Part shown: positions 33,224 through 35,296 of the stretch, piece by piece
Layout of the letters: each line of letters starts with the position of its first letter
Numbering within the stretch: position 1 is the first letter of the stretch
IMG/VR virus record: IMGVR_UViG_3300027746_000697
Location: 52,632 to 116,631 of that record
Source of the DNA: a virus
Reading direction: 5' to 3' (one strand)
Length of the DNA stretch: 64,000 bases
The notes under the pieces: model-generated
The model's database searches: none
The model's input: the letters and a program-made list of their open reading frames with translations, nothing else
What the model was told of the DNA's origin: nothing
Position numbers and translations under genes: made by a program

Positions 33224-34102
33224 ATGACAGTTACTGGCAAAACACTTAGAGAAGCCCTTCAACTTAATGCAGTAGTTCCTCACCCTTTAGACTTGTGGCC
33301 GTATCGACACACAACTATGATTCCAAATCAAAGTTTTGATTGGTCTGGCACTGATCATGAAACATTGTATAAACGTAATCTTAGAAATTTGCCAGACAAC
33401 TGGATTTATAGAACCAAGAAAATTACCTATAACTATAACGAGCAGGGACTTAGGATGCCTAAAAGTGTCTATGCTGTCGATAAAGATTATATTTTATTTT
33501 CAGGTACTAGCTATACACAAGGTTTAGGAGTAGCAGAAGAAGATAGATTTTGTAATCGTGTAAGTGCAGAATTGGGGTTAGATTTTATCCCGCATGGTGG
33601 GCCAACATTCACTATTAAAACAAATGCTATTTCTTTTTTTAATTTTTTAGACACTAACATGCCTCTGCCTAAAATATTTGTTATGGAATATCACAAAACC
33701 AATTGTTGGACATATTACTCTGAAAATAATTTTGTTCATATACATAACTCGCACGGTACACTAAAACATTTACCCGAAGGTAAACAATTTACTAGTCACA
33801 TCGAGTCTTATAAAAAAATAGCAGAGACTGACCATTTTTTACACGAATCGAATTTATATCGCAATATGATGAAAGCAACTTGTAAACGTTTAGGAATAAA
33901 ATTTGTAGAAGTTAGTTTTGACGAACCTACTGAACCCTTTATCACTGAGAACGGAATTAAACGTGTAGATATGAGTTCGCATAGTGACGATATAAACTAT
34001 TGTTTTGGTAGAGATGTACGGGTGCGGCCAGAAGGATATTATTCTCATCCAGGTATCGGTTTACACGGAGAAGCGGCCGAGCTAATTTTATCTCAAGTAT
34101 GA
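33224..34102 (+). CDS. SGNH-like hydrolase-fold protein
   Basis: 292 residues. Block I is degenerate (YILFSGTSYTQGLGV with Ser/Thr near residue 95), a Gly block II (FIPHGGPTFTIKTNA) and a final PGIGLHGEAAEL with His in the usual block V place; N-terminal 80 residues include a W-P-Y-R-rich linker. It resembles phage-encoded SGNH proteins next to glycan genes. Overlaps the mini-adenylase gene by four bases, so both are translated together. Confidence 0.68.
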   Translation: MTVTGKTLREALQLNAVVPHPLDLWPYRHTTMIPNQSFDWSGTDHETLYKRNLRNLPDNWIYRTKKITYNYNEQGLRMPKSVYAVDKDYILFSGTSYTQGLGVAEEDRFCNRVSAELGLDFIPHGGPTFTIKTNAISFFNFLDTNMPLPKIFVMEYHKTNCWTYYSENNFVHIHNSHGTLKHLPEGKQFTSHIESYKKIAETDHFLHESNLYRNMMKATCKRLGIKFVEVSFDEPTEPFITENGIKRVDMSSHSDDINYCFGRDVRVRPEGYYSHPGIGLHGEAAELILSQV

Positions 34103-34746
34103 GTAACTTAATTTTATTCACTTCGGGTAGCACTACTGATCCAAAGGAAATATCTCATCCTTGGGAATTTATTAACAGTTGTGCAGAGCAATCAGTAGAC
34201 GAAATTAAACTAACGTCAACTGACATTGTACTAGATGTGTTTCCTGGAAATACAATAGCACATTATACTGTTACAGCATTACCTGCAAGAATAGCAGGAG
34301 CAACTCTAATTTCCGCTAATTTCAATCCTTACTCATATATCGAACTGTTTAACAAATATAGACCTACGTATATTAGTTTAATTCCAAAACACTGGGATTT
34401 ACTTTCTAAAACCAAGGGCTGGGATAATTTTGATATGAACTGTGTTAGATATATGGTAACTGGTAGCGGAACATGTTCACAAACTATGATTGATTCATTC
34501 CTAAGCAGAGGCGTACAGCTAGTTGCCAATTGGTATGGCATGACTGAAATGCCTCCGCCGGTATTCATAGGCTACAACTCCGAAACCTTTGACTTCGATA
34601 CTGCAAAGAATTATAACGTTGAGTTTGATAACGGTGAATGTATTATTAACGGTTGGCGCACAGGCGATATATTTGATGTGAATGAAAAAAAGTTTATATC
34701 ACGAAAAGATACAGCAAATGGAAAAACTTGGAAATCTAACATTTAG
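34099..34746 (+). CDS. Miniature adenylate-forming (ANL superfamily) enzyme
   Basis: 215 residues, less than half the normal 450-600. The protein begins directly at the ATP-binding motif A3 (ILFTSGSTTDPKEISH), then has RYMVTGSGTCSQTM (A4 region), NWYGMTEMPPPVF (A5, Y-G-x-T-E), GWRTGDIFDV (A7, T-G-D) and FISRKDTANGKTWKSN (A8, R-x-x-D and a Lys). All N-terminal substrate-pocket sequence before A3 is missing and the C-terminal lid is cut to a few residues. It might form acyl-adenylates for the following GNAT. The frame is intact, so it is not a random fragment. Confidence 0.82.
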   Translation: MSNLILFTSGSTTDPKEISHPWEFINSCAEQSVDEIKLTSTDIVLDVFPGNTIAHYTVTALPARIAGATLISANFNPYSYIELFNKYRPTYISLIPKHWDLLSKTKGWDNFDMNCVRYMVTGSGTCSQTMIDSFLSRGVQLVANWYGMTEMPPPVFIGYNSETFDFDTAKNYNVEFDNGECIINGWRTGDIFDVNEKKFISRKDTANGKTWKSNI

Positions 34747-35296
34747 ACCTTTAGTTGATTCCGATCGTTTAGCATTGGCAACTTTTTGTGTAGAGTGCGA
34801 AAAACTTGGATACGAAAACAATAAATCGTTTGAGTCAATTAAACTTGATAAAATGAAAATGCCTTACGGACAATTCTTTGTTGGGTTGGATCAAGATAAA
34901 ATTGTTACGTTTGCTGGAGTGCATCATCTGCCAGAGCTAGGTAATAATGCATGGAGATGTTTATTTCGTGGAGCACAACTTCCGGGGTATACTCCAACAT
35001 GGAGTATTAACATTTTTAAAAGTTGGATACATTTATCTCACTTACTGTATTATCAAATTAAGCTAGTTCAACAATTAGATCCAACTGCTGAATTTTACAT
35101 TAGCACAAATGTAGACAACAAAAAAGCGGGAGTAAGTTCCCGCTTGGATAAAACTATAATGCCTAGACTAGTTAAGCAAGGTATGTTTACCTTACATAAC
35201 AAAGACATTATACTATATAATACTCTTCAAAATGTTTGGAAATTAAACACAGAAACGTATCTCAGTGAACGCAATCTTTATATTGAAAATTCATGA
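34718..35296 (+). CDS. GNAT-like acyltransferase
   Basis: 192 residues from ATG 34718 (an ATG at 34682 is possible but overlaps the adenylase by 65 bases). LTFRPLVDSDRLALATFCVE is the usual first strand and helix of a GNAT, FFVGLDQDKIVTFAGVHHLP the second pair of strands, and AEFYISTNVDNKKAGVSSRL follows the central helix. The pyrophosphate loop is weak, so this is a moderate call. Coupled to the mini-adenylase, suggesting acyl transfer to an amine. Ends convergent with the hydroxylase block. Confidence 0.6.
   Translation: MEKLGNLTFRPLVDSDRLALATFCVECEKLGYENNKSFESIKLDKMKMPYGQFFVGLDQDKIVTFAGVHHLPELGNNAWRCLFRGAQLPGYTPTWSINIFKSWIHLSHLLYYQIKLVQQLDPTAEFYISTNVDNKKAGVSSRLDKTIMPRLVKQGMFTLHNKDIILYNTLQNVWKLNTETYLSERNLYIENS

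Follow-up and report, generated by a model that had tools for sequence, protein, structure and literature searches.

ANL enzymes are two-domain proteins, with a C-domain that swings for two reactions. The window analysed here, a stretch of 64,000 nucleotides from a virus record of 116,631 bases, contains a gene for an ANL protein of 215 residues (mini-ANL) that covers only part of the first of these domains. What could so small an ANL protein do, and with which partner?

A half-size ANL protein and its ATP site

An initial reading of the sequence (the first-pass annotation) had recognized motifs A3, A5, A7 and A8, in that order, in an intact frame beginning at A3. We confirmed this reading with the 215-residue open reading frame, a Pfam match and the location of the individual motif residues (Table 1). 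The match to PF00501 (AMP-binding) had an E value of 5.5e-17, scored 62.1 bits against a cut-off of 29.9, and was restricted to positions 166-330 of the 384 in the profile. The ATG lies 7 residues ahead of A3, and the C-terminal end of the protein falls within A8.

Table 1. Mini-ANL, its motifs and neighbouring genes in the window (invariance counted over 63 distinct complete sequences)
Feature	Position	Strand	Remarks
Tail-fibre-like gene	31191..32429	+	Label is a reading of the sequence, not a database match
Asp/Asn beta-hydroxylase-like gene	32491..33222	+	PF05118, E 1e-05; same gene run, upstream
Preceding gene, SGNH-like solely in sequence features	33224..34102	+	4-base overlap with mini-ANL
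Mini-ANL gene, 215 aa	34099..34746	+	ANL N-domain, only A3 to A8; intact ORF
A3 P-loop, residues 8-16, TSGSTTDPK	34120..34146	+	T8, S9, G10, T12 and K16 invariant, 63/63
A4-like segment, residues 49-57, PGNTIAHYT	34243..34269	+	Placed by alignment; P49 and N51 invariant, 63/63
A5, residues 144-150, NWYGMTE	34528..34548	+	Every residue except M148 invariant, 63/63
A7, residues 188-190, TGD	34660..34668	+	T188 and D190 invariant, 63/63; G189, 62/63
A8 arginine, R202	34702..34704	+	Invariant, 63/63; sole A8 residue kept; hinge residue not conserved
C-terminal T210-W211-K212	34726..34734	+	Invariant, 63/63; putative lysine hook
GNAT-fold gene, 192 aa	34718..35296	+	Start common to relatives; overlaps mini-ANL stop

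An AlphaFold2 model of mini-ANL built from 25 sequences had a pLDDT of 88.0 and a pTM of 0.85, with the P-loop blocks moderately confident (pLDDT 80 and 71 per ten residues). By Foldseek and VIA-align, the model is folded like the latter half of the ANL N-domain: the best Z score was 18.6, with 202 of the 215 residues aligned, and the best structural placement lay inside residues 163-412 of 5ie2. Structure prediction against ANL folds, a check that the first-pass annotation had proposed, thus returned an ANL fold.

Mini-ANL lacks the N-terminal structural part (A1 and A2) as well as the C-domain (PF13193), the hinge and the A10 lysine. Because the C-domain with the A10 lysine is absent, we regard it as a truncated homologue and not as a canonical ANL enzyme with two domains. 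Within the retained part, the second glycine of the A3 consensus (TGxPK) is not kept, the window having TTDPK, and at the aligned position there is no evident counterpart of the A4 histidine that full-length relatives have. Excerpts of PMC8388817 assign a structural role to A1 and A2 and list A3, A4, A5, A7 and A8 as ATP/acyl motifs, with the ATP phosphates bound by the P-loop. Since this loop is conserved in mini-ANL, it argues for use of ATP and not for binding of AMP only; and since the ATP-positioning motifs are kept and A1 and A2 are structural, the ATP site would not lie in the missing N-terminal part. Judging from these motifs, ATP binding by mini-ANL is likely. On the same grounds it is doubtful that the pocket resides in the missing N-terminus, and also because PMC4757408, in excerpt, reports residues 213-348 of luciferase as the region where luciferin and ATP bind. 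The real catalytic gap in mini-ANL lies at the missing C-domain and A10 lysine, rather than at the N-terminus.

A conserved family of half-size relatives

Two scans of viral contigs recovered 30 relatives and 98 relatives, respectively, and 80 of the 98 were kept. The loci contained 64 distinct sequences; one (L031), cut by a contig end, was dropped to leave 63, and neighbourhood counts were made over 62 loci, leaving out L031 and L019, which starts at the mini gene. An ATG stands 5-8 codons ahead of the A3 TSG in 64/64 distinct sequences, and the frame upstream of A3 is closed within 46 codons, likewise in 64/64. The 63 complete relatives are 210-225 residues long, with a minimum pairwise identity of 0.46 and a median of 0.59, and all 25 members of an alignment of the family matched PF00501 at E <= 0.1. 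A search for other A3-start mini versions in viruses, also suggested at first pass, was therefore productive. G122, S123 and H98 are invariant in 63/63, together with P49, N51 and W145, and the conservation on the pocket side between A4 and A5 fits a conserved acyl substrate.

For the window gene, dN/dS against its two nearest relatives was 0.108 and 0.112; the median over 58 usable pairs was 0.16, a few very close pairs giving higher, poorly determined values of up to 0.87. Ratios of about 0.11 (median 0.16) indicate that mini-ANL is under purifying selection. Mini-ANL represents a real, conserved half-size ANL family, well supported as to both family and fold. Judged informally by gene content and contig numbering, the source waters seem to be both marine and fresh.

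No homologue covering at least 80% of mini-ANL was found among 50,697 records of annotated phage genomes, and among titles and abstracts of an open-licence PMC library, the terms searched yielded no paper on such a protein. One family member is entered in BFVD/UniProt: A0A6J5L770, from an uncultured Caudovirales phage, has 214 residues, 55% identity and a TM score of 0.91. It carries the apparently automatic name 'AMP-dependent synthetase/ligase', and we found no study on it.

A first scan of bacterial genome contigs gave no mini-ANL, and a second gave one, a protein of 213 residues on a Dehalococcoidia MAG contig (L115:4998-5636). This copy has 46% identity to sequence 1 of the query alignment, shows the same A3-type start and ends in GKTWKDVS, so that T-W-K is kept; the second A3 glycine is present, and A5 has F for Y. 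Its flanks are cellular metabolic genes (CoA-transferase family III, ThyX, FMN_bind_2 and HAD), and no GNAT gene was recognized among the 10 proteins scanned in the 10.6-kb stretch. Within the phylum, 1 of 400 genomes contained a mini-ANL at E <= 1e-15, namely the source genome of L115, and patterns drawn from this copy alone found no viral relatives. As L115 is a MAG contig, a small chance of misbinning or misassembly is left, but the neighbours of the mini-ANL on it are cellular genes.

The C-terminal tail, the GNAT-fold partner and the gene neighbourhood

New here is the T-W-K at the extreme C-terminus, which all 63 sequences share. At most 16 residues follow the A8 arginine: the distance from R202 to the threonine is 8 residues in 55 sequences and 9 residues in the other 8, and K212 is followed by 1-5 further residues. 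The entropy of T, W and K is zero both in the loci with an adjacent GNAT gene (49/49) and in those without (14/14), 11 of the latter belonging to one clade (support 1.0), and many of the neighbouring columns vary at 2-3 bits. Such invariance with and without an adjacent GNAT, amid variable columns, makes a role at the level of the protein likely, as read from the alignment. We rejected the view that T-W-K follows from the overlap with the GNAT gene: 14/14 loci without an adjacent GNAT have it, and so does the cellular copy.

By analogy, we propose that K212 may replace the missing A10 lysine, within or between subunits. According to excerpts of two reports, the alpha-phosphate is bound in NatL2 by Lys418 from the C-terminal extension of the other monomer (PMC7204872), and in ClxA by K393 of the partner subunit's C-terminal extension (PMC12519233). 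In our model of mini-ANL the tail (residues 206-215) has a pLDDT below 50 and its position is not predicted.

The gene that follows had been called GNAT-like, correctly so by its predicted fold: its model (pLDDT 92) matches PA3270 (8gxj) with a Z score of 13.4 over 167 residues. Its alignment comprises 37 of 56 GNAT-family genes, and among these 37 members there was no credible Pfam match; by sequence, the partner matched a GNAT weakly (E 0.014), and the annotated phage genomes contained no match to it. GNATs carry the acetyl-CoA loop motif [Q/R]xxGx[G/A]; a strict QxxGx[G/A] is present in 6/37 partners and a loose QxxG in 29/37. The GNAT gene adjoins mini-ANL in 49/63 loci and is not adjacent in 14/63. 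In all 49 adjacent loci the GNAT gene, taken as its longest open frame, overlaps the stop of mini-ANL, with identical spacing in 26, and the start common to relatives is the ATG at 34718, not 34682. A GNAT that takes its acyl group from an adenylate, or from a thioester, would fit.

On the other side of mini-ANL, the overlap with a preceding SGNH gene that the first-pass annotation had described was found, at 4 bases. The SGNH assignment itself rests on two features of the sequence, G-T-S and H-P-G-x-G-x-H, and searches of Pfam, NCBIfam and PDB profiles returned no SGNH/GDSL match. The family of the tail-fibre-like gene lies at most three genes upstream of mini-ANL in 44/62 loci, genes of Asp/Asn-hydroxylase type are present in 48/62 and those of Trp-halogenase type in 34/62. 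These surroundings look like a modification cassette, and the tail-fibre-like gene, the Asp/Asn hydroxylases and the radical SAM genes suggest a virion protein or a peptide as the target.

Several Asp/Asn beta-hydroxylase-like genes (PF05118) cluster on both strands at 32491-38327, and the joined family has 170 genes across 50 of 64 loci. The tryptophan-halogenase-like gene at L014:7060-8247 (PF04820, E 3.2e-77) belongs to a family that often adjoins the mini-ANL/GNAT pair. Downstream of mini-ANL, the stretch 40505-54958 carries no fewer than seven genes for radical SAM proteins (PF04055), several of which have SPASM domains; it looks like a peptide- or natural-product-modification cassette. 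At 30414-31097 is a 2OG-Fe(II) oxygenase-like protein whose C-terminal CTCKLRTTQLICDGSH resembles a CDGSH iron-sulphur motif (PF09360, E 0.038); its gene family is present in 4 loci. ARAGORN placed 32 tRNA genes and a tmRNA (flagged tmRNA*), 33 in total, at 10382-25771 and 55051-55146, and a 491-residue protein at 26468-27943 matches PHROG 850 'RNA-binding protein' (E 2.4e-139). Four proteins gave no match to a defence system.

Proposed function and comparison with known systems

The best explanation, to which we give about an even chance, is that mini-ANL is a free-standing half-size ANL enzyme, one whose sequence family, conservation, predicted fold and gene overlap are described above and whose chemistry we infer: it would make an acyl-adenylate by way of its tail lysine and hand it to the GNAT. 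Following this logic, the protein would keep the ATP-site part of the N-domain, without the structural N-terminal part and the C-domain, and would bind Mg-ATP and convert a small carboxylic acid to the acyl-adenylate. The invariant T-W-K lysine would enter the site of its own or its partner subunit, replacing the A10 lysine. As the thioester-making C-domain is absent, an amine may then take the adenylate directly, and the co-translated GNAT-fold protein would act as the transferase or as an acceptor-binding partner. In its fullest form the proposal is tentative: a natural minimal adenylate-former of ~215 residues, with the catalytic lysine moved to the T-W-K hook, could make up with the co-translated GNAT a two-gene ATP-dependent N-acyl ligase that has a phage or peptide target.

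The first-pass annotation had left three options: a minimal catalytic version, a split enzyme and a non-catalytic ATP binder. The minimal version fits best, with motifs invariant in 63/63 and an ANL fold, and the split enzyme was unsupported in 16 virus records. That mini-ANL is a non-catalytic subunit, binding ATP or an acyl-adenylate to sense or hold the nucleotide and to regulate or feed the GNAT, is unlikely. Such a role would agree with the absence of the entire C-domain, A10 lysine included, with the loss of the second A3 glycine and with the tight gene coupling to the GNAT, but the P-loop, the A5 Thr-Glu, the A7 Asp and the A8 Arg are invariant in 63/63, which is beyond the needs of AMP binding, and T-W-K is invariant even without an adjacent GNAT.

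The 16 virus records bear on whether a viral or host protein might supply in trans what ANL enzymes normally have and mini-ANL lacks, be it the N-terminal part, the C-domain or both, much as luciferase halves can reassemble (PMC4757408, in excerpt). The PF13193 C-domain was found in 0/16, and PF00501 matched once per record in 16/16, always within profile positions 157-332, so there was no second ANL gene in these records; a diverged or host partner would escape both searches. We consider such a split enzyme quite improbable. Carrier protein PF00550 was present in 2/16 at E <= 0.1, one of them above the cut-off (G007), and in the window's own record there was none.

We are just as sceptical of other chemistry on the same ATP site, for example an AMP-transfer reaction with a protein or a small molecule as acceptor. 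Such chemistry would agree with the retained ATP-site motifs, with the uncertainty on the acyl side and with the absence of a C-domain for thioester formation; against this, the pocket side from A4 to A5 is strongly conserved, P49, N51, H98 and W145 among others being invariant in 63/63. Finally, decay of a full-length ANL gene after its capture, or a wrongly chosen start codon, would agree with the half length and with the lack of a homologue of at least 80% coverage in the 50,697 phage records, but we reject both as next to impossible given the same conserved start design in 63 distinct complete sequences, an upstream frame closed within 46 codons of A3 in 64/64, and purifying selection at a dN/dS of about 0.11.

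Should mini-ANL be active by itself, it would rank as an unusually small natural member of a large enzyme class. A conserved ANL protein without a C-domain raises the question of the minimal fold needed for carboxylic acid activation, and mini-ANL offers a small scaffold for a direct test of it. Mini-ANL also points to a modification pathway that has gone unstudied in aquatic phages.

Among known systems, the ANL acyl-/aryl-CoA ligases provide the best PDB matches of mini-ANL (5ie2, 6akd and 5bsw) and its best sequence matches (feruloyl-CoA synthetase 8wev and FadD13). Both share the fold of the latter N-domain half, the motifs A3, A5 and A7, and the A8 Arg; mini-ANL differs in lacking about 150-200 N-terminal structural residues and the whole C-domain, and has 215 residues compared with about 400-600. 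The partner shares its predicted fold with GNAT N-acyltransferases such as PA3270 (8gxj), and differs from them in having no credible Pfam match and in a strict acetyl-CoA loop that is restricted to 6/37 members.

The PaaK-type amide- and ester-forming enzymes ClxA and NatL2 (9s3l, 9s45; NatL2 in PMC7204872) are, in the excerpts of PMC7204872 and PMC12519233, ANL enzymes without the thioester-forming step. ClxA also has a short N-terminus, and mini-ANL aligns to its residues 65-310 with 22% identity. Unlike mini-ANL, both retain the C-domain, and their lysine is described in the same excerpts as acting across the dimer; the extension of the C-domain in NatL2 comprises residues 405-436 (PMC7204872, in excerpt), whereas mini-ANLs have at most 16 residues past the A8 Arg. 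In these two enzymes the active site is completed by a lysine of the C-terminal extension (excerpts of PMC7204872 and PMC12519233), to which K212 of mini-ANL would be the putative counterpart.
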